Assembly: GCF_947503795.1 (NCBI RefSeq)
Contig: NZ_CANNEZ010000001.1
Location: 983,001-1,047,000, forward strand
Length of the DNA: 64,000 nt
Source of the DNA: an uncultured Jannaschia sp.
Lineage (GTDB): Bacteria > Pseudomonadota > Alphaproteobacteria > Rhodobacterales > Rhodobacteraceae
Direction: 5' to 3'
This document shows positions 52,784-64,000 of the stretch, piece after piece; positions within the stretch are counted from its first letter, which is position 1, and the number at the start of each line of letters is the position of its first letter. Under the pieces are notes generated by a model, which saw nothing but the letters and a program-made list of their open reading frames with translations, had not been told where the DNA came from and searched no databases. The position numbers and the translations under genes are program-made.

Positions 52784-53856
52784 CCCGCCCCCTCGTCGAG
52801 GTGCGCGACCTCAAAATGCATTTTCCGATCCATGCCGGGCTTCTGCGACGGCAGGTCGGGGCGGTGAAGGCGGTCGACGGCGTGTCCTTCGACATCATCG
52901 AGGGCGAGACCCTCGGGCTCGTGGGCGAGTCGGGCTGCGGCAAGTCCACCTGCGGCCGCGCGGTGCTGCGGCTCTACGACATCACGGAGGGCGAGATCGT
53001 CATCGACGGGCGCGCCATCGGCGGTGATAGCCAACGTTCGCTGCGGACGATGCGCCCGACGATGCAGATGGTCTTCCAAGACCCGCAGGCGTCGCTGAAT
53101 CCGCGCATGACCGTCGGCAACATCATCGGCGAGCCGTTGCAGGAACATACCGACATGGACGCCACCGCGCGGCAGGCGCGCGTGGCCGAGCTGATGGACC
53201 AGGTCGGCCTCAACCGGACCTTCCTCAACCGCTACCCCCACGAGTTCTCGGGCGGGCAGCGGCAGCGGATCGGGATCGCCCGCGCACTTGCGCTGAAGCC
53301 GAAATTCATCGTCTGCGACGAGCCGATCGCGGCGCTCGACGTGTCGATCCAGGCGCAGGTCGTGAACCTTCTCGAGGAGCTGCAGAACGAGCTGGGGCTG
53401 ACCTATCTCTTCATCTCCCACGACCTCAGCATGGTGCGGCACATCGCCGATCGCGTGGCGGTGATGTATCTCGGCAAGGTGGTCGAGCTTGCGCCGCGCG
53501 ACGCGCTCTACGACCACCCGCTCCACCCGTATACCGAGGCGCTGCTTTCGGCCGTGCCCGAGCCTGATCCCGCCAAGGCCGGCCAGAAGAAGAACCGGAT
53601 CGTGCTGCAGGGCGACGTGCCCAGCCCCGCAAACCCGCCCGAAGGCTGCAACTTCTCCACCCGCTGTCCCAGGGCGATGGACCTGTGCCGCCGGGTCGAT
53701 CCGGCCTTTCGCGAGGTCGAGCCGGGTCATTGGGCCGCGTGCCACCTGCACGATCCCGAGCATCAGGCCGACATGGTGCCACCGCCCGTCGCCGGGCCTG
53801 ACACGGATGCCGGGCCGGACCCCGACGCCGCACCTGCACCCGAGGGGGATGGATGA
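52780..53856 (+). CDS. Peptide ABC transporter ATPase (DppF/OppF-like)
   Basis: 358 residues. Walker [15 protein letters not shown], the [18 protein letters not shown] signature, [14 protein letters not shown] Walker B and a C-terminal cysteine cluster ([14 protein letters not shown]). It forms the heterodimeric motor with the gene before it. The last 40 residues are Pro/Asp-rich ([17 protein letters not shown]), longer than usual. Start overlaps DppD by ATGA. Confidence 0.92.
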
Positions 53857-53971
53857 AATTCCAATTTTCACTGAAGATTGGGGGGCCGACGCGACGCAGA
53901 TCGCGCGGAACGAGGACGATGAGCATCAACGCTTCGCGCGATACGCGAACGATCAACACGGAGATCAACAC

Positions 53972-55687
53972 ATGACAACCAGATCCGCATTGCTGTGCGC
54001 CGCCGCCAGCTTCGCCCTGGCCCCGATGGCATATGCCGACGGCCACGAGGGCAAGCGCGGCCGCGACGGCCAGGTCAATATCATTTACTGGCAGGCGCCC
54101 TCGACGCTGAACCCGTTCCTGTCGGGTGGCACCAAGGACGTCGAATCCGCCTCGCTGATCGTCGAGCCGCTCGCGCGCTTCGACGAGACGGGCACCATCC
54201 AGCCGTGGCTCGTCACCGAGATCCCCACCGTCGACAATGGCGGCGTCACCGAAGATCTGACGCAGATCACCTGGAAGCTGCGTGACGACATCCTCTGGTC
54301 GGACGGCACGCCCTTCACCAGCGCCGACGTCGCCTTCACCCACGAGTATTGCACCCACCCCGAGGGCGGCTGCGCGCAGATCACGAAGTTCGAGTCGGTC
54401 GAGAGTGTCGAGACGCCCGATGACTTCACCGTGGTCGTGAACTTCAAGGAGCCGACGCCCTATCCCTACACCGCGTTCGTCGGCGGCGAGAGCCCGATCC
54501 TGCAGAAAGCGCAATTCGAGGGCTGCCTCGGCGCCGCCGCCTCGGCCTGCACCGAGCAGAACTTCAACCCGATCGGCACCGGTCCGTTCGTCGTGGACGA
54601 GTTCCGCACCAACGACGTGATCTCGCTCTCGGCCAACCCGAATTACCGCGAGGCGGGCAAGCCGGCCTTCGCCAGCGTAAACTTCAAGGGCGGCGGCGAC
54701 GCCGACGCGGCGGGCCGTGCCGTGATGCAGACCGGCGAGTTCGACTACGCCTGGAACCTGCAGCTGGCCCCCGAGGTCATCGCGCAGATGGAAGCGGGCG
54801 GCTTGGGCACGCCGGTCGCGGGCTTCGGTCCGCTGGTCGAGCGCATCATGCTCAACAACACGAACCCCGATCCGGCGCTCGGCCCGGACGAGCGCTCGGT
54901 CGTGCGGCCGCATCCGTTCCTGTCGGACCCGGCGGTCTACCAGGCGCTGTCGATGGCGATCGACCGGCCGCTTCTGGTCGAGATCGGCTACGGCCAGGCG
55001 GGTCGCGTGACCTGCAACTGGATCCCGGCCCCCGAGGCGTTCTCGTCCACCTCTATGACCTGCGACACGCAGGATCTCGAAGGCGCGAAGGCCATGCTCG
55101 AGGAAGCCGGCTGGGTCGACAGCAACGGTGACGGCGTCCGCGAGAAGGACGGCGTCGAGCTGCGCGTGCTCTACCAGACCTCGACCAACGCCGTCCGTCA
55201 GGACTTCCAGGCGCTGATCAAGGAGTGGTGGGAAGAGCTGGGCGTCGCGACCGAGCTGCGCAACGTCAATTCGTCGGTGTTCTTCGGCGGCGATGCGGGT
55301 TCGCCCGACACGTTCCAGAAGTTCTATGCCGACGTCGAGATGTACGCCAACACGTTCAACGGCACCGACCCGCAGGCCTATCTGGCCAACGGCCTGTGCG
55401 ACAAGGCGCCGTCGCCCGACACCCAGTGGCAGGGCGAGAACATCTCGCGCTTCTGCATGGAGGAGTACGACACGCTCTGGAACGAGCTGGCCCAGACGGC
55501 GGATATCTCCGAGCGTCAGCGCATCGCCAAGGAGCTTAACGACATGATCGTGCAGAACGGCGGGATGATCCCCCTCGTGCACCGCGGTCGCCTGTCGGCC
55601 CACGCCAACTCGCTCGGCGGCATCAAGCTGAACGTGTGGGACAGCGAGCTGTGGAACATCGCCGACTGGTACCGCATCGGCGAATGA
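53972..55687 (+). CDS. Peptide ABC transporter substrate-binding protein (family 5)
   Basis: 571 residues, periplasmic. Signal peptide MTTRSALLCAAASFALAPMAYA is followed by the SBP_bac_5 fold: NIIYWQAPSTLNPFLSGGTKD, WKLRDDILWSDGTPFTSADV, NPIGTGPFVVDEF and the C-terminal RQRIAKELNDMIVQNGGMIP. Cysteine pairs in the mature protein could form disulfides. Ligands are peptides or similar; nothing more specific is evident. A long hairpin between this gene and the permease gene suggests differential expression. Confidence 0.92.
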   Translation: MTTRSALLCAAASFALAPMAYADGHEGKRGRDGQVNIIYWQAPSTLNPFLSGGTKDVESASLIVEPLARFDETGTIQPWLVTEIPTVDNGGVTEDLTQITWKLRDDILWSDGTPFTSADVAFTHEYCTHPEGGCAQITKFESVESVETPDDFTVVVNFKEPTPYPYTAFVGGESPILQKAQFEGCLGAAASACTEQNFNPIGTGPFVVDEFRTNDVISLSANPNYREAGKPAFASVNFKGGGDADAAGRAVMQTGEFDYAWNLQLAPEVIAQMEAGGLGTPVAGFGPLVERIMLNNTNPDPALGPDERSVVRPHPFLSDPAVYQALSMAIDRPLLVEIGYGQAGRVTCNWIPAPEAFSSTSMTCDTQDLEGAKAMLEEAGWVDSNGDGVREKDGVELRVLYQTSTNAVRQDFQALIKEWWEELGVATELRNVNSSVFFGGDAGSPDTFQKFYADVEMYANTFNGTDPQAYLANGLCDKAPSPDTQWQGENISRFCMEEYDTLWNELAQTADISERQRIAKELNDMIVQNGGMIPLVHRGRLSAHANSLGGIKLNVWDSELWNIADWYRIGE

Positions 55688-55741
55688 CCTGACCCCGGGG
55701 GCGGCGTTCGCGCCGTCCCCGCCCCCGCCGCGCCCGTGGCG

Positions 55742-55796
55742 CGGTGGGTTTCTCCCGGTCCCCGGCTGCGCGCGGGGGGCTCGGCGAGACCCACCG
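55742..55796 (+). other. Intercistronic inverted repeat after peptide-binding protein gene
   Basis: Outer arms cggtgggt (55742-55749) and acccaccg (55789-55796) enclose a GC-rich inner region that can also fold (ccccg with cgggg). It lies between the binding-protein stop and the permease start and lacks a T-run. Confidence 0.55.
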
Positions 55797-55821
55797 GAAC
55801 CCTTCGACCCGAGGACGGCCC

Positions 55822-56829
55822 ATGCTGACCTTCACCATCCGACGACTGGTCTTCGCGATCCCGACGCTGCTCTTCATCGCGCTGGTGATCTTCATGCTGC
55901 TGGAGCTGGCGCCCGGCGACCCGATGGCCAACGTCCCGCTGACCGTGCCGTCGGAGGTCAAGGAGCAGATGCGCCAGGCGCTGGGCCTGGGCGAGCCGGC
56001 GCCGATCCGGTTCTGGAAATGGATCGTCCAGTTCTTCTGGATCGAGCCCCTGAACGTGGTCGACGGCCTCTTCGGGACGACCTTCGCGGAAGGCAAGCTG
56101 CGCATCATCTCGTGGCAGAACCGCGCGCCGGTCTTCATGACCATCGCCGAGCGCATTCCCCAGACGCTCTGGGTCGTCGGCACCGCCTATATCGTGGCCA
56201 TCGCCATCGCGATCCCCGTGGGTATCTACTCGGCCTACAAGCAGTACTCGGTCTTCGACCAGGCGGGCACGTTCGTCACGATGGTCGGCTTCTCGGTCCC
56301 GCCGTTCTTCTCGGGCGTGCTCGTCATCATCATCTTCGCGGTGCAGCTTCGGTGGTTCCCGTCGATCTACGACACGACACTGGTCGTCGATTCATGGGAC
56401 GCGCTGAAACAGCAGATCTGGCAGATGTTCCTGCCGGTGATGATCCTCGCCCTCCAGATTACCTCCCAGCTCAGCCGGTTCATGCGCGCCTCGATGCTCG
56501 ATAATCTCGGGCAGGACTACGTGCGAACCGCCCGCGCCAAGGGCCTGCGCGAGCGGACGGTCGTGCTGGTCCACGTGCTGCGCAACTCGATGATCCCGGT
56601 CGTGACCGTCATCGCGCTGGGCGTGCCGCAGGTCTTCGGCGGCGCCATCATCACCGAGCAGGTTTTCAAGGTAAACGGCATCGGCCAGCTTCTGATTACG
56701 GCGCTGCAGGCCAACGACCTGCCGATGGTGCAGACGCTGACCTTCATCTTCGCGGTGCTGATCGTGCTCTTCAACCTGATCGCGGATGTGCTCTACGGCA
56801 TCCTCGACCCGAGGATCCGCTATGACTGA
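55822..56829 (+). CDS. Peptide ABC transporter permease (DppB-like)
   Basis: 335 residues. Six transmembrane helices are predicted: the first is LVFAIPTLLFIALVIFMLLEL. The cytoplasmic EAA loop reads DYVRTARAKGLRERTVVLVHVLRN, and GGAIITEQVFKVNGIGQLL is typical of DppB. A large periplasmic segment lies after helix 1. It overlaps the next gene by 8 nt (ATG 56822). Probably works with DppC as a heterodimeric channel. Confidence 0.92.
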   Translation: MLTFTIRRLVFAIPTLLFIALVIFMLLELAPGDPMANVPLTVPSEVKEQMRQALGLGEPAPIRFWKWIVQFFWIEPLNVVDGLFGTTFAEGKLRIISWQNRAPVFMTIAERIPQTLWVVGTAYIVAIAIAIPVGIYSAYKQYSVFDQAGTFVTMVGFSVPPFFSGVLVIIIFAVQLRWFPSIYDTTLVVDSWDALKQQIWQMFLPVMILALQITSQLSRFMRASMLDNLGQDYVRTARAKGLRERTVVLVHVLRNSMIPVVTVIALGVPQVFGGAIITEQVFKVNGIGQLLITALQANDLPMVQTLTFIFAVLIVLFNLIADVLYGILDPRIRYD

Positions 56830-57802
56830 CGCCCGCGAACCCGTGACCGCATCCGGCGTCGAGCCCGCCGTCACCGCCGCCCCCGGCGCCGTTGGCGGCA
56901 CCGAGCCCGTTCTGTCCAAGCCCGAGCGCAGCCAGTGGTGGGACGTCTGGGACCAGTTCCGCACGCACAAGGGCGCGATGTTCGGCGCCATCGTCTTTCT
57001 GGCCATCGTGGCGCTGGTCGTATTGGGACCCTTCGTCTGGGACATGGAATCGGGGGTGAAGACCGACATGCGGTCGCGCAACCTCGGGATGAGCTGGGAG
57101 CACCCGCTGGGCACCGACCGGCTGGGCCGCGACATGTTCGCCCGGATGATCGCCGGCGGGCAGATCAGCCTCGCCGTGGGGCTCACGGCCATGGCGCTCA
57201 GCCTTGTGCTGGGCACACTGATCGGCGTTCTTGCGGGCTATTTCCGCGCGCTCGACGGGGCTTTGATGCGGTTGACGGACCTGTTCCTCGCGCTGCCGCT
57301 CCTGCCGCTGCTCCTCGTGATGGTCCTCCTCTTCCGCGAGCCGCTTTCGGCGGCCTTCGGGGTCGAGACCGGCATCTTCATCCTGATCGTCTCGGCCATC
57401 GGGATCACGTCCTGGATGCAGACCGCGCGGATCGTGCGCGGCGACGTGCTCGCCCTGAAGGAGCGGGAGTTCGTGCTGGCGGCCCGTTCGGTCGGGACGC
57501 CGTCGCGGCGCATCATCTCGCGGCATGTGCTGCCCAACGTGCTGTCGCCGATCATGGTGTCGGCGACGCTGGGGATCGCGACTGCGATCATCACCGAAAG
57601 CGCGCTCTCCTTCCTGGGCCTGGGCTTCCCGCCCGACTTCCCAACCTGGGGCCGCCTGCTGAACGATGGGGTGCCCTTCCTCGAGCTGAACCCCGGCCTT
57701 GCCTTCTGGCCGGGCGTCGCGATCAGCCTCGTGGTGCTCTCGATCAACTATGTCGGCGACGGCCTGCGGGACGCCCTCGACCCGCGCATCCGGGGCCGCT
57801 GA
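56822..57802 (+). CDS. Peptide ABC transporter permease (DppC-like)
   Basis: 326 residues. DppC signature PLGTDRLGRDMFARMIAGGQISLAVG is present near residue 95, with the EAA loop LAARSVGTPSRRIISRHVLPN and the ending LNPGLAFWPGVAISLVVLSINYVGDGLRDALDPR. An unusually long hydrophilic N-terminus (about 45 residues) precedes the first membrane helix. It ends the operon and converges on the VOC gene with only 7 bases between the stops. Confidence 0.92.
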   Translation: MTDAREPVTASGVEPAVTAAPGAVGGTEPVLSKPERSQWWDVWDQFRTHKGAMFGAIVFLAIVALVVLGPFVWDMESGVKTDMRSRNLGMSWEHPLGTDRLGRDMFARMIAGGQISLAVGLTAMALSLVLGTLIGVLAGYFRALDGALMRLTDLFLALPLLPLLLVMVLLFREPLSAAFGVETGIFILIVSAIGITSWMQTARIVRGDVLALKEREFVLAARSVGTPSRRIISRHVLPNVLSPIMVSATLGIATAIITESALSFLGLGFPPDFPTWGRLLNDGVPFLELNPGLAFWPGVAISLVVLSINYVGDGLRDALDPRIRGR

Positions 57803-57809
57803 GCCGGCG

Positions 57810-58226
57810 TCAGGCCTGCCGAAACGGCTGCAGCGCGTCACGGTGGACGAGGTGCAGCTTGTTGCCGTCGGGATCGCGCAGGTAGGCGCCGTAGTAGTCC
57901 GGTTCATAATGGGGCCGGGGGCCGGGCGGCCCGGCGTCGGTTCCGCCTGCATCCAGCCCCGACGCGTAGGCCGCATCGACCGCCGCTCGCGACGGCGCGA
58001 TCAGGGCGATCATGGTGCCGTTTCCTGCCGTCGCCGCCCGCTCGTCGAAGGGCGTCGCGATATAGAGGCGCGGCGCGTCGAGGCCCGCGACGTGAAAGCA
58101 GAGCATTTCGGGGCCGCCATCGTCCTCGAACGCCCGCTCCACCAGGTTCATCTCGGCGGCGATCGCACGGTAGAACGGGGCCGCGCGCGCGAGGTCGCGC
58201 ACACCCAGCGTCACGTGGCTGATCAC
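57810..58226 (-). CDS. VOC (glyoxalase/bleomycin-resistance fold) protein, last gene of nitrile hydratase-like operon
   Basis: 138 residues. ISHVTLGVRDLARAAPFYRA at the N-terminus and YYGAYLRDPDGNKLHLVHRD at the C-terminus form the metal-binding halves of the VOC fold; His4 and Glu/His-type residues are retained. The exact reaction is unknown. Its start overlaps the alpha-subunit stop (ATGA), tying it to the nitrile hydratase-like genes. Convergent with the transporter operon. Confidence 0.78.
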   Translation of the reverse strand: MISHVTLGVRDLARAAPFYRAIAAEMNLVERAFEDDGGPEMLCFHVAGLDAPRLYIATPFDERAATAGNGTMIALIAPSRAAVDAAYASGLDAGGTDAGPPGPRPHYEPDYYGAYLRDPDGNKLHLVHRDALQPFRQA

Positions 58227-58858
58227 GGTGCGGTGGCCACGCCCACGCCGATCATGCTGTCGCGGGTCACCAGGGCGGCCAACGCGGCCTCGTCCAGACC
58301 GTCGGTCCCGGTGGGCCGCGCGGGGATCACGACGTAGCGCATGTCGGCAGTGCTGTCATGGACGCGGACGGTGGTGTCGTCGGACAGCTCGAGCCCGAAT
58401 TCCGACAGGACGGCGCGCGGCTCGCGCACCGTGCGCGAGCGGTATTCGCGGGACTTGTACCAGTCGGGCGGCAGGCCCAGCAGGTTGCGCGGATAGCACG
58501 AGCACAGGGTGCAGACGACGACGTTGTGGGTGTCGTCCGTGTTCTCGACCGCGATCAGGCGCATGGGGCCCACGTCGAACCCCATTTCCGCACAGGCGGC
58601 GGACCCGTCGGCCAGCAGGCGATCCCGAAAGGCCGGGTCGGTCCAGGCGCGCGCGACGAGGGCGGCGCCCTGCGCGGGCGAGCGGGCGTCCATCGCGTCG
58701 ATCTGGGCCGTGACCTCGGCGGGGGTGACGACGCCCTTCTCGACCATCAGCTCGCGCACGGCGATCTCGAGCGTCTGCCAATAGGTCAGCGGTCCGTCCT
58801 GATCGGGCCGGTAGGGGTGACCCGAGGGGCTCAGGTGGTCGTGATGGTCATGGGGCAT
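58223..58858 (-). CDS. Cobalt-type nitrile hydratase alpha subunit / thiocyanate hydrolase gamma subunit-like
   Basis: 211 residues. The metal-claw motif VVCTLCSCYPR has Cys116, 119 and 121; Thr after the first Cys marks the cobalt type (Ser in iron types), and the equivalent motif exists in thiocyanate hydrolase gamma. It normally binds low-spin Co(III) with two oxidised cysteines. The N-terminal helices contain ELMVEKGVVTPAEVTAQID. Length is close to nitrile hydratase alpha. It follows betaC with a 1-nt overlap (TGATG). Nitrile or thiocyanate as substrate cannot be told from the sequence. Confidence 0.88.
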   Translation of the reverse strand: MPHDHHDHLSPSGHPYRPDQDGPLTYWQTLEIAVRELMVEKGVVTPAEVTAQIDAMDARSPAQGAALVARAWTDPAFRDRLLADGSAACAEMGFDVGPMRLIAVENTDDTHNVVVCTLCSCYPRNLLGLPPDWYKSREYRSRTVREPRAVLSEFGLELSDDTTVRVHDSTADMRYVVIPARPTGTDGLDEAALAALVTRDSMIGVGVATAP

Positions 58859-59142
58859 CAGACGGGCTCCAGCCAATGGGCGTAGATCTCGGCGTCGAGC
58901 GTGTCGCCGGGGCGTTCGGGTGCCTCCCAGATGTCGTCCATCCGGAAGCGTACGCGATAGAGCGGCAGGCGCGCGGCGTCGTGGGAATAGGCGAGCTGTT
59001 CGGGATTGCCGAACGGCCCGAGCACCCGCTCGACGGTGCCGGTCCGGCCACGCAGGTAATGCGGCGTGCGGACATGGCCCGGCGGCGTCATGGTGCGAAC
59101 GCGGACCCGCGCGCCGGGGGTAAGGGGCTCAGCGTCCGGCAT
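58858..59142 (-). CDS. Nitrile hydratase beta C-terminal domain as a separate gene (SH3-like)
   Basis: 94 residues, corresponding only to the C-terminal half of nitrile hydratase beta: HVRTPHYLRGRTGTVERVLG, then LYRVRFRMDDIWEAPERPGDTL and AHWLEPV. Arg31 and Arg33 lie where beta subunits place an Arg contacting oxidised metal-claw cysteines. It begins inside the betaN gene (14-nt overlap) with GAGG before ATG 59142; other Met codons further up overlap more. The domain equals thiocyanate hydrolase alpha in arrangement. Confidence 0.82.
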   Translation of the reverse strand: MPDAEPLTPGARVRVRTMTPPGHVRTPHYLRGRTGTVERVLGPFGNPEQLAYSHDAARLPLYRVRFRMDDIWEAPERPGDTLDAEIYAHWLEPV

Positions 59143-59473
59143 CTGCGGCCTCGCCATAGGTGGTGCCGCGGGCGGCGACCTCCTCCATCTTGGCGCCGAG
59201 TTCGGCCACGGAATAGACGCCACGTTCCAAGAGGTTCTGGTTGAGCGATGCCACCCAGCGCTCGTAATAGCTCATGGTCTCGAACGCGTCCTCGCCCATG
59301 TCCTCGAGCACCCGCCGCAAGCCGTCCACCGAGAAGACGCCCGCCAGCCCCGCGAGGATCACCAGCGCATCGACCCGCTTTTCCCACAGCGCGAAATCGT
59401 GATCGGCATCGGGAACCGGACCGGCGAGGTCGCCGCCCATGTCGTGCCAGCGCCGTGCGGGACCGTCGGTCAT
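59129..59473 (-). CDS. Nitrile hydratase beta N-terminal domain as a separate gene
   Basis: 114 residues equivalent to the N-terminal half of nitrile hydratase beta. The ALWEKRVDALVILAG segment holds Arg33, matching the conserved beta Arg that contacts the metal-centre cysteines; FETMSYYERWVASLNQNLLERG is typical of the domain. Homologous stand-alone proteins also serve as activators (P14K/P15K type), so a dual or alternative chaperone role is possible. It overlaps the DUF442 gene by ATGA. Confidence 0.82.
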   Translation of the reverse strand: MTDGPARRWHDMGGDLAGPVPDADHDFALWEKRVDALVILAGLAGVFSVDGLRRVLEDMGEDAFETMSYYERWVASLNQNLLERGVYSVAELGAKMEEVAARGTTYGEAADAGR

Positions 59474-59898
59474 GCCTGCGCCTCCAGCTGTTCGATCTGC
59501 GGGCGGAGTCCCTCCAACGCGTAGCCCGCGCGCGCCGTGGCGGCGAGGATGTCGTTCGCAGGCATCCGGCCCGCCATGGCCAGCGCCCAGAGCACCGCGC
59601 TGCGCGTGCCCGATGCGCAATAGGCCACGACGGAGCCCTCGGCGGCGTCGATGGCGTCGGCCTGCTCCTCGACGGCGGACAGCGTCAGGTTGGGCATCGC
59701 GACGGGGTTGAAGGTGAAGGCGAGGCCCGCGGCCTCGGCGGCGGCCTGCATCGCGGCGGCCTGATGCGAAGGCGGCACCTCGCCGTCGGGACGGTTGCAG
59801 ATGATCGCGGTCACGCCATCCGCGGCCAGCTCGGCCATGTCCTCGGGGTCGAGCTGGGGCGCGACGGAGGTCGTGTCGTCGAGGGGGCGCAGATCCAT
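59470..59898 (-). CDS. DUF442 / TIGR01244-type sulfurtransferase-phosphatase protein
   Basis: 142 residues. DUF442 proteins have a rhodanese- or phosphatase-like active-site loop: here YCASGTRSAV with Cys94 and Arg99. The rest (VAPQLDPEDMAELAADGVT, IICNRPDGEVPPSH) is typical. In other bacteria the domain is fused to an MBL persulfide dioxygenase (Blh), here separately encoded 82 nt upstream. It probably relays sulfane sulfur or processes a sulfur intermediate. Confidence 0.85.
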   Translation of the reverse strand: MDLRPLDDTTSVAPQLDPEDMAELAADGVTAIICNRPDGEVPPSHQAAAMQAAAEAAGLAFTFNPVAMPNLTLSAVEEQADAIDAAEGSVVAYCASGTRSAVLWALAMAGRMPANDILAATARAGYALEGLRPQIEQLEAQA

Positions 59899-59980
59899 GG
59901 GCGGCGGTCCGGTTTGGTCGGTTACGTCCGCGAAGATGCCCGCAGGGTGCGCGGAAGGAAAGACGCGGATCGCGCGCGCG

Positions 59981-60841
59981 TCACAGCCGGTTGACGGGCA
60001 GCTTCAGCGCGACGTTCCCGTCGGCATCCGGCTCGGGCATCCGGCCGCCCCGCATGTTCACCTGCAGCGACGGCAGGATCAGCTTCGGGGCACCCAGCGT
60101 CGCGTCGCGCTCGGTCCTGAGCTTGAGGAAGGCCTCGCGCCCATCGGTGACGTGGCGGTTGCGCTTCTCTGCGGCGACGCTGGTTTCCCACGCGAACTCG
60201 TCGCGGCCCGGCGCCTTGTAGTCGTGGCCGACGAAGATGCGGGTGGCATCGGGCAGGGCGAGGATCTTCTGCATCGAATCCCACAGCGTCTCAGCCGAGC
60301 CGCCGGGGAAATCGCAGCGCGCGGTGCCGAAATCGGGCATGAACATCGTGTCGCCGACGAAGGCCGACGCGGCATCCTCGGGCCCGACCACATAGGTAAG
60401 GCAGGCGGGCGTGTGGCCCGGCGTGTGCAGCACGCGGACGGGCAGGGTGCCGATCTCGAAGCGGTCGCCCTCGCGGAAGAGCGCGTCGAACTGGCTGCCG
60501 TCGCGTTGGAACCGCGTGCCCTCATTGAAGATCTTGCCGAAGGTGTCCTGAACGGTAACGATCTCGGCGCCGATGCCGATCTTCCCGCCCAGTTTCTCCT
60601 GGATGTAGGGCGCGGCCGAAAGGTGGTCGGCATGGACATGGGTTTCCAGCAGCCACTCCAGCGTCAAGCCCCGGTCGCGGATCGCGGCGATCAGGCGGTC
60701 GGCGCTGGTGGTGGAGGTCCGGCCCGCAGCCATGTCGAAATCGAGCACCGGGTCGATGACGGCGCAGGTCGTGCCGTCATCCACCAGATAGCTGACGGTG
60801 TTGGTTCCGGGGTCGAAGAACCCCTCGACATTGGCGGTCAT
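59981..60841 (-). CDS. MBL-fold hydrolase, persulfide dioxygenase-like (Blh/ETHE1 type)
   Basis: 286 residues. The metal motif THVHADHLS places His68, His70, Asp72 and His73; HTPGHTPACLTYV, GDTMFMPDFGTARCDFPGG and IFVGHDYKAPGRDEFAWE follow. These match the Blh/ETHE1 subgroup that oxidises glutathione persulfide to sulfite, rather than beta-lactamases. The first gene of the likely operon with DUF442 and the nitrile hydratase-like genes, from which it is separated by 82 nt. Confidence 0.87.
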   Translation of the reverse strand: MTANVEGFFDPGTNTVSYLVDDGTTCAVIDPVLDFDMAAGRTSTTSADRLIAAIRDRGLTLEWLLETHVHADHLSAAPYIQEKLGGKIGIGAEIVTVQDTFGKIFNEGTRFQRDGSQFDALFREGDRFEIGTLPVRVLHTPGHTPACLTYVVGPEDAASAFVGDTMFMPDFGTARCDFPGGSAETLWDSMQKILALPDATRIFVGHDYKAPGRDEFAWETSVAAEKRNRHVTDGREAFLKLRTERDATLGAPKLILPSLQVNMRGGRMPEPDADGNVALKLPVNRL

Positions 60842-62246: not shown

Positions 62247-62362
62247 GAATGTCGTCCGCCGGTTGTACGGTCGCAAACGCCGGGTCGGGCCCGTTGTTCC
62301 GGTGATCCTTGCATCGGGCGGGTCGAAATCTCTAGATGCGTTCGACGGATCGGGAGGGATGT

Positions 62363-64000
62363 ATGGGCTGGAAGGCGGAGTGGGAGCGGGCCAGGACCGA
62401 CCCCGAAGGGTTCTGGATGGAGCAGGCCCGCGCGATCGACTGGGAGCGGATGCCCTCTCGGGCGCTGCACGACCAGGGCGGCCCGGTGCCCGAATGGTTC
62501 GCGGACGGGATGGTCAACACCTGCCACAACGCCGTCGACCGGCATGTCGCGGCCGGGCATGGCGACCGCCTGGCGCTGATCCATGACAGCCCCGTCACCG
62601 GACGCGTCACCCGCATCACCTATACCGAGCTTCAGGACCGTTGCGCGCGCCTCGCCGGGGCGCTGGGCGAACGGGGCGTGGGCGCGGGCGACCGGGTCGT
62701 GATCTACATGCCGATGGTGCCCGAGGCGATCGTCGCGATGCTCGCCTGTACGCGCATCGGGGCGATCCATTCGGTCGTGTTCGGCGGCTTCGCGGCCTCC
62801 GAGCTGGCGGTGCGGATCGACGACGCCAAGCCCCGTGCGATCATCGCGGGCTCCTGCGGGATCGAGCCCGGACGGATCGTCGCCTACAAGCCGCTTCTGG
62901 ACGAGGCGCTGCGCCTTGCCGACCATGCGCCCAACTTCACCATCCTGCTGCAACGCCCCGAGGGGCCGGGCGAGATGGGGGCGTCGGATGTCGACTGGGC
63001 CGACGCGATGGAGGCCGAGCCGGTGCCCTGCGTGCCCGTGCGCGGCGACCACCCGGCCTATATCCTCTATACCTCGGGCACGACCGGCGCGCCGAAAGGC
63101 GTCGTGCGCGCGACCGGCGGGCATCTCGTGGCGCTCGACTGGACGATGGAGAACATCTACGACACCCGGCCGGGCGAAGTCTTCTGGGCCGCGTCCGACG
63201 TGGGCTGGGTCGTGGGACACAGCTACATCTGCTACGCGCCGCTGATCCACGGCTGCACCAGCGTCGTCTTCGAGGGCAAGCCCGTGGGAACGCCTGACGC
63301 CTCGACCTTCTGGCGGGTGATGGCGGATCACGGCGTGGTCAACTTCTTCACGGCGCCCACGGCCTTCCGCGCCGTCAAACGCGACGATCCGACCGGGGCG
63401 CTGATGGCGGGGCACGACCTCTCGAAGCTGCGGCACATCTACCTTGCGGGCGAGCGGGCAGATCCCGACACGATCGACTGGATCGCGGCGCGCACCGGCC
63501 TGCCGGTGATCGACCATTGGTGGCAGACCGAAACGGGCTGGGCCATCGCGGCGAACCCCGTGGGTCTCGAGGCGCTGCCGGTCAAGATCGGCTCGCCTTC
63601 GGTGCCCATGCCCGGCTACGACGTGACCGTGCTGGACGATGCGGGGCAGGCGGTCGAACCCGGCACGCTGGGCGCCATTGCCGTGCGCCTGCCGCTGCCG
63701 CCGGGGACGCTGCCGACGCTTTGGCACGCGGAGGACAGGTTCCGGTCGAGCTATCTCTCGACCTTCCCGGGCTTCTACGAGACCGGTGACGCGGGAATGA
63801 TCGACGAGGACGGATACCTCTGGATCATGGCGCGCACCGACGACGTCATCAACGTGGCCGGCCATCGCCTGTCGACGGGGGCGATGGAGGAGGTGCTGGC
63901 CGCCCATCCCGACGTCGCAGAATGCGCCGTGATCGGCGTGGCCGACCCGCTCAAGGGCCAGCTGCCGCTGGGTTTCCTCTGCCTGACCTCGGGCGTCACG
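62363..64000 (+). CDS. prpE: Propionyl-CoA synthetase-like AMP-forming ligase, 3' end outside the window
   Basis: 546 codons are visible to the right edge; the family is about 630 residues long. It opens MGWKAEWERARTDPEGFW, typical of PrpE rather than AcsA. ATP/AMP motifs: ILYTSGTTGAPKGVVRATGG, VFWAASDVGWVVGHSY, WWQTETGWAI, YETGDAGMIDEDGYLW and ARTDDVINVAGHRLSTG. The product would be propionyl-CoA, though acetate is also often accepted. GGGAGGG precedes ATG 62363; transcribed away from trkH. Confidence 0.92.
   Translation, partial: MGWKAEWERARTDPEGFWMEQARAIDWERMPSRALHDQGGPVPEWFADGMVNTCHNAVDRHVAAGHGDRLALIHDSPVTGRVTRITYTELQDRCARLAGALGERGVGAGDRVVIYMPMVPEAIVAMLACTRIGAIHSVVFGGFAASELAVRIDDAKPRAIIAGSCGIEPGRIVAYKPLLDEALRLADHAPNFTILLQRPEGPGEMGASDVDWADAMEAEPVPCVPVRGDHPAYILYTSGTTGAPKGVVRATGGHLVALDWTMENIYDTRPGEVFWAASDVGWVVGHSYICYAPLIHGCTSVVFEGKPVGTPDASTFWRVMADHGVVNFFTAPTAFRAVKRDDPTGALMAGHDLSKLRHIYLAGERADPDTIDWIAARTGLPVIDHWWQTETGWAIAANPVGLEALPVKIGSPSVPMPGYDVTVLDDAGQAVEPGTLGAIAVRLPLPPGTLPTLWHAEDRFRSSYLSTFPGFYETGDAGMIDEDGYLWIMARTDDVINVAGHRLSTGAMEEVLAAHPDVAECAVIGVADPLKGQLPLGFLCLTSGVT

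Follow-up and report, generated by a model that had tools for sequence, protein, structure and literature searches.

Introduction

The genes of thiocyanate hydrolase (SCNase) lie in the order scnB-scnA-scnC, and this enzyme, ScNHase of Streptomyces canus, toyocamycin nitrile hydratase and the Blh/bigR operon are the described systems closest to the locus analyzed here: six genes on the minus strand of a 64,000-nt stretch (the window; positions 983,001 to 1,047,000 of contig NZ_CANNEZ010000001.1) in the 3.46-Mb genome of an uncultured Jannaschia sp. The locus encodes a nitrile-hydratase-family alpha subunit, the two halves of the beta subunit as separate proteins (betaN and betaC), a DUF442 sulfurtransferase, an MBL-fold protein and a VOC-fold protein. 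SCNase (ScnABC, PDB 2dd4) shares with the window a beta subunit carried by two chains (A and B), the CTLCSC claw of alpha, the arginine that follows CSCYP, and membership in a larger alpha clade; it differs from the window in its curated-model score, a second pocket arginine, an alpha insert and a GHSPYWYR stretch, none of which the window has.

ScNHase (AnhD-AnhE-AnhA) likewise has a split beta subunit and an alpha subunit, in the order betaN-betaC-alpha: AnhD and AnhE match the two beta halves, AnhD acts as a chaperone, the enzyme is active without a separate activator, and it hydrates the nitriles ACE, THI and BN but not indole-3-acetonitrile (PMC7329996). Published work thus already includes a nitrile hydratase of three polypeptides in this gene order; the likeness rests on the published description, the available part of which mentions no sulfurtransferase neighbour such as the window has (PMC7329996). 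Toyocamycin nitrile hydratase (ToyJKL), which we liken by description, also has three subunits, and ToyJ alone is reported to be active (PMC7329996). The Blh/bigR operon resembles the other side of the locus: the window DUF442 and MBL proteins match the two domains of Blh, and sulfur transporter-like genes of that operon are shared with fuller relatives of the window but are absent beside the window trio (PMC5823870). Blh is one protein, whereas DUF442 and MBL are two in the window and are joined to a nitrile hydratase trio.

A probable three-polypeptide nitrile hydratase behind a DUF442 gene

We consider it probable that the locus encodes a three-polypeptide cobalt enzyme of the nitrile hydratase family, its substrate left open, that is joined to a rhodanese-type DUF442 sulfurtransferase. 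Gene content, order, family, pocket residues and conservation of the linkage are observed directly; the six genes, called on the minus strand of the window, are:

59981..60841, minus strand: MBL-fold protein (PF00753), covering the persulfide dioxygenase half of Blh
59470..59898, minus strand: DUF442, stand-alone sulfurtransferase with rhodanese loop CASGTR (PF04273, BLH_phosphatase; TIGR01244)
59129..59473, minus strand: betaN, N-terminal half of nitrile hydratase beta (PF21006, NHase_beta_N)
58858..59142, minus strand: betaC, C-terminal half of nitrile hydratase beta (PF02211, NHase_beta_C)
58223..58858, minus strand: alpha subunit, claw CTLCSC then YPR (PF02979, NHase_alpha, 270 bits)
57810..58226, minus strand: VOC/glyoxalase-fold protein with a GTG start (PF00903)

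All six products score above their cut-offs in a Pfam search, and the three-polypeptide enzyme proposed in an earlier note on this DNA is borne out, with betaN, betaC and alpha each a separate gene. Positions and order are as that note had them. A gap of 82 nt separates MBL from DUF442; the following junctions are an ATGA overlap (DUF442/betaN), a 14-nt overlap (betaN/betaC) and a 1-nt overlap (betaC/alpha), all as noted earlier, and only alpha/VOC needs correction, reading GTGA (the VOC start being GTG) rather than ATGA.

The window has both marks of the Co-type nitrile hydratase family: a CTLCSC claw, which we assume to be of the cobalt type, and two conserved beta arginines, presumably catalytic, which are kept in 158/160 and 160/160 split loci. 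Profile searches of the whole genome returned one PF02979 match and one PF21006 match; with a single PF21006 match there is no second betaN-like activator. An ordinary two-subunit nitrile hydratase was rejected, as beta is split and the genome lacks a separate betaN-like activator.

What we infer for the encoded proteins is complex formation, cobalt binding, the chemistry and a functional coupling to DUF442. By analogy with the family, Co(III) in the CTLCSC claw, with two cysteines oxidised, would activate a C-N triple bond so that water can attack it, and the two beta arginines would assist that attack. The lack of a second betaN-like gene, together with the AnhD precedent in ScNHase, suggests that betaN probably doubles as a cobalt and self-subunit-swapping chaperone. 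The pocket arginine after the claw points to a small polar or anionic nitrile-like substrate. Relatives in Jannaschia and Litoreibacter have DUF442 directly ahead of the trio, in some of them within a persulfide/thiosulfate operon (MBL, YeeE, DUF6691), and this makes it probable that the enzyme and a sulfane-sulfur enzyme are produced jointly.

Split beta and the residue after the claw

The split trio is not a chance arrangement, since 78 of the 80 closest named loci carry betaN, betaC and alpha as separate same-strand genes in this order, and in the remaining two betaN lies past a contig end. A wider sample covered 198 genomes of the same family (taken to be Rhodobacteraceae), one per genus, 106 of which had a PF02979 match. 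Its 109 loci, with six short fragment matches left out, comprise 56 fused alpha-beta, 34 split betaN-betaC-alpha, one split alpha-first and one fused beta before alpha; in 16 the partner was not found, and one is without alpha. Among 59 further loci from class and phylum draws there are 36 split betaN-betaC-alpha, 18 fused, one split alpha-first and four partial; these loci had been chosen as the top scorers on the SCNase model, and split forms are therefore over-represented. Some entries are duplicated in these locus sets: L230 repeats the window, and L040 and L171 represent a single species.

Architecture goes with the residue three positions past the claw. Split loci read CYPR in 143 of 150 cases (CYPK in three, CYPW in three, motif missing in one), whereas 71 of 75 fused loci read CYPW, two CYPL and two CYPH, with arginine in none; 22 partial loci read F in 13, R in four and W in four, one being without the motif. 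The residue after CSCYP separates split from fused architectures, and SCNase and nitrile hydratase differ at this same site. The clade is set apart from two-subunit nitrile hydratases by its split beta and by arginine at claw+3, a position mostly occupied by tryptophan in fused-beta enzymes. The site is also known from structures: PDB 3vyh is a P. thermophila enzyme in which the PDB alignment gives a W-to-R change at the residue after CSCYP, and PDB 3vyg, which we take to be the reverse mutant of SCNase, scores below 2dd4 in the PDB searches with alpha, as fits that identity; the wild-type SCNase arginine was read in two plasmid SCNases (L267 and L268) and the nitrile hydratase change in 3vyh. 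A Streptomyces plasmid trio with the same gene order also reads CYPR, and it is therefore quite possible that the arginine by itself is no sign of thiocyanate.

Some nitrile hydratases from the same family and from plasmids (L130, L141, L146, L266 and others) form a subgroup with phenylalanine after CSCYP. The beta subunit of Roseobacter CCS2 seemed truncated to Marron et al. (PMC3323583); this strain is our locus L063, where beta is split.

A tree of alpha sequences (88 rows: 83 loci hand-picked from 266, two SCNases and three PDB stretches) unites 56 split rows, one partial row and the two true SCNases in one group (Shimodaira-Hasegawa approximate likelihood ratio, SH-aLRT, 97). Outside it, across a weak fork (60), stand 24 fused rows with two split (L227, L264) and two partial rows. 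The window alpha sits in a set of 22 same-family and named Rhodobacterales rows (96), its four nearest named relatives all being Jannaschia (84-87%), and the true SCNases fall in another subclade, on a long branch (1.09). The window enzyme belongs to a betaN-betaC-alpha clade spread across Alphaproteobacteria, with the true SCNases inside it. The tree does not group alpha firmly with ordinary nitrile hydratases, an outcome that the earlier note would have counted against its proposal, although by the curated model alpha is a nitrile hydratase.

Thiocyanate hydrolase identity

The earlier note had proposed that thiocyanate or a related sulfur-nitrogen compound is hydrolyzed here and that sulfide from the product is oxidised by the MBL/DUF442 pair. 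The likeness to SCNase that it saw stands as far as gene order (that of scnB-scnA-scnC) and one pocket arginine are concerned: CTLCSCYPR, with its arginine three residues past the claw, occurs in the window alpha and in L267 and L268 alike, the top PDB match of betaN is ScnB (2dd4_B; weak, E = 9.8e-6), and the true SCNases lie in the same larger clade. The identity itself is not supported. Alpha scores 263.1 bits on TIGR01323 (nitrile hydratase alpha; cut-off 249.85), which it passes, and 195.1 bits on TIGR03887 (SCNase; cut-off 291.45), which it does not reach; L267 and L268, both annotated scnC, score 356.8 and 359.2, so TIGR03887 is able to recognise alphaproteobacterial SCNases. Homology of alpha to solved chains is strong in the PDB sequence search, where it matches 35 sequences with the SCNase chains ranking last, and betaC matches the C-terminal part of nitrile hydratase beta chains.

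The pocket points the same way. At ScnB-90 (position 90 of ScnB, counted on the PDB alignment), the site of the second SCNase pocket arginine, betaN of the window has leucine where ScnB, L267 and L268 have arginine. The column reads L 138, N 6, K 4, S 3, T 3, F 2, V 1 and H 1, and no R, in the split loci (158 of 160 listed), and includes S 64 and R 1 in the fused loci (81 of 83 listed). The alpha insert and the GHSPYWYR stretch of L267 and L268 are also absent from the window alpha, and the subclade is a different one. No protein exceeded the TIGR03887 cut-off in 289 genomes of the class, 398 of the phylum or 390 of one order; the two true SCNases turned up on plasmids in a search with the ScnB stretch. 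The sulfide-oxidation half of the proposal is likewise disfavoured, because the link was seen in few genera and MBL is an infrequent companion: with 3.5 kb of upstream DNA, and counting the same strand only, it was found in 7 of 23 linked loci and in 7 of 70 named ones. We therefore regard an SCNase proper, feeding sulfide to MBL and DUF442, as very improbable.

The two plasmid SCNases (Azospirillum and Roseomonas) carry their beta halves fused into one 283-aa protein, unlike the window; TauE/SafE genes lie near both, and CbtA/CbtB as well in Roseomonas.

The DUF442 link

Scoring as linked any same-strand DUF442 gene that lies at most 700 bp upstream of betaN, we found the link in 21 of 77 assessable named loci and, in the per-genus family sample, in 3 of 34 split loci, window included. 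The sulfur-gene linkage that the earlier note had seen in the window is thus conserved in other genera (24 of 113 tree rows, at least three named genera), and the absence from relatives that it had allowed for did not occur. Among 42 wider loci the single DUF442 match is the second copy of the window, and the DNA examined around 83 fused loci (30 of them longer than 9 kb) contained no DUF442 match. PF04273 is common in its own right, with matches in 177 of 198 family genomes.

In the 70 named loci with 3.5 kb upstream, where MBL is found seven times, a member of a transporter pair, Sulf_transp (YeeE-like; score 26.5, cut-off 27) with DUF6691, is found nine times. The 23 linked loci with such DNA (same strand only, one species counted twice) divide into seven with MBL and the pair, three with the pair and no MBL, and 13 with DUF442 alone. 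The fullest order, MBL-YeeE-DUF6691-DUF442-betaN-betaC-alpha, occurs in L036, L051, L057, L073, L097, L101 and L106; the pair is absent at the window, as only 82 nt separate MBL from DUF442 there. The constant partner is DUF442, not MBL, and the DUF442 link is real but local.

No constant partner emerged for the wider clade. Twenty wider loci, with up to 6 kb on each side, contained no DUF442 or YeeE/DUF6691 match; MBL matched weakly (59 bits) in one of them, on the strand that does not carry the trio. A Pfam survey of their neighbours left out three of the 20 that had no called alpha and gave 59 of the 102 neighbours of the other 17 to Pfam; the commonest family among the matches listed (best 25 of 133) was Epimerase, at only 4 of 59. 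Among the papers listed in literature searches, open-access titles and abstract openings described no nitrile hydratase joined to DUF442, the subscription literature lying mostly outside that search.

On a concatenated tree of 113 rows, the 24 linked rows require three changes, falling into 11 Jannaschia/Thalassobacter rows (99), 12 rows of Litoreibacter type (99) and L057. A more careful 50-row tree again gives three changes, and in 0% of its 200 bootstraps is a single change enough. A single origin followed by losses is nevertheless compatible, as holding the linked rows as one clade gives p-AU (approximately unbiased test) 0.0785 on the nitrile hydratase tree and 0.746 for the linked proteins on the DUF442 tree. 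In the latter, of 23 linked and 30 unlinked proteins (the unlinked ones being the best-scoring of a per-genus sample, not a random set), 22 of the 23 linked DUF442s group together (88), with L057 apart. The trees suggest that the linkage arose in one to three events.

These patterns bear on another alternative, that the trio is a nitrile hydratase for an ordinary organic nitrile and that the sulfur genes are chance neighbours or share only a promoter. Most relatives lack a DUF442 neighbour, the nitrile hydratase model is passed, and ScNHase, with the same gene order, is a precedent, its three substrates being, we assume, acetamiprid, thiacloprid and benzonitrile. Against it stand the recurrence of the link in 24 of 113 rows, the common grouping of 22 of 23 linked DUF442s, and the junction itself: in 11 of 11 Jannaschia/Thalassobacter loci, the window being one of them, betaN has an in-frame start (ATG or GTG) that overlaps the DUF442 stop by 4 nt. 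We hold this alternative to be possible, though the less likely account.

Sulfur chemistry and cyanide

The assignment of DUF442 and MBL to the two halves of Blh, made in the earlier note, is confirmed: on NF040641 (Blh) DUF442 scores 82.2 bits and MBL 367.7 bits over positions 142-423, the full-length cut-off of 625 being unreached as the two halves are separate proteins here. DUF442 also scores 131.2 bits on TIGR01244 (cut-off 85.85). A comparison of 53 DUF442 proteins shows that the window protein keeps the cysteine and the loop-end arginine of the rhodanese loop; the exact loop CASGTR occurs in 21 of 23 linked DUF442s vs. 4 of 30 unlinked ones.

A more specific reading is cyanide disposal: DUF442 would transfer sulfane sulfur to cyanide, with thiosulfate or a persulfide as the donor, the trio would convert the resulting thiocyanate to ammonia and carbonyl sulfide, and MBL together with sulfide:quinone enzymes elsewhere would recycle the sulfur. 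The route from cyanide through thiocyanate to ammonia is chemically coherent, because the DUF442 domain of Blh turns thiosulfate and cyanide into thiocyanate and sulfite in vitro (PMC5823870) and the window protein has the loop-end arginine, which a second study reports to be required in another DUF442 and in RDL2 (PMC8533005). It also agrees with the 13 of 23 linked loci in which DUF442 stands beside betaN with no same-strand MBL or transporter match, with the alpha pocket arginine shared with true SCNases, and with a DUF442 fused to a sulfide:quinone-reductase-like part elsewhere in the genome.

Several points weigh on the other side. Cyanide is the stock acceptor in rhodanese assays. The Blh DUF442 domain also accepts glutathione (GSH) (PMC5823870). 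The same alpha arginine recurs across the split clade, loci without DUF442 included. The missing second arginine (leucine in betaN) and the nitrile-hydratase-like score, with the SCNase model unreached, argue against efficient thiocyanate hydrolysis. Cyanide disposal of this kind is therefore unlikely in our estimation, and we would give only slender credence to its ecological form, a one-operon cyanide disposal system of marine Rhodobacterales in which DUF442 makes thiocyanate, an arginine-pocket trio distinct from known SCNases hydrolyzes it, and the sulfur is returned via persulfide chemistry.

The genomic fusion mentioned above (L290, C1:1595135) is 557 aa long; its sulfide:quinone-reductase-like part scores 185 bits, below the model cut-off.

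Weighing the preferred reading

For the reading that we prefer, a cobalt nitrile-hydratase-family enzyme joined to DUF442 with the substrate left open, the following facts are unfavourable. The link is missing from 31 of 34 per-genus family loci, from 4 of 4 further family loci and from 37 of 37 loci outside the family (27 class, 4 phylum and 6 plasmid records); as most relatives are without it, it says little on the original role of the clade. Overlap of betaN with DUF442 is restricted to the Jannaschia/Thalassobacter loci, the 13 other linked rows having gaps of 3-61 nt. Three split loci (L031, L175 and L227) have tryptophan after CSCYP. The alpha tree was made by a quick method and has 34 open forks, with the SCNases long-branched, so the exact SCNase placement is unsure. 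Substrate, cobalt content and assembly are predicted from sequence.

Three-polypeptide nitrile-hydratase-type enzymes occur across Alphaproteobacteria, and the published accounts that we found cover isolated members only. As split beta and pocket arginine go together, with SCNases inside the clade, this is a place to ask how nitrile hydration became thiocyanate hydrolysis. Coupling to a sulfurtransferase with thiocyanate-making relatives is conserved; it provides a concrete candidate substrate and suggests a link between sulfur and cyanide chemistry.

Surroundings of the trio

The housekeeping surroundings of the trio recur. In 81 loci (80 named and the window; genes called with our own caller, clusters named from L063), an aconitase cluster is found in 60, a lipid A acyltransferase-like gene in 55, a DUF1223 cluster in 51, a FliG-like gene in 45 and purB in 39. 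A VOC match near the trio is restricted to 4 of the 80 named loci, all four Jannaschia. Peptide-transporter genes and an acetyl-CoA-synthetase-like gene, which flank the locus in the window (53489-57802 and 62336-63999), are also found next to the trio at several Jannaschia loci.

Some trios are interrupted by extra DNA: L070, L154 and L169 have it between betaN and betaC (in L070 with a called frame of 258 aa), and L159 has it in both gaps. On a Planktothrix agardhii plasmid (L260), betaN-betaC-alpha stands directly behind an asparagine synthase gene, possibly as part of a natural-product cluster.

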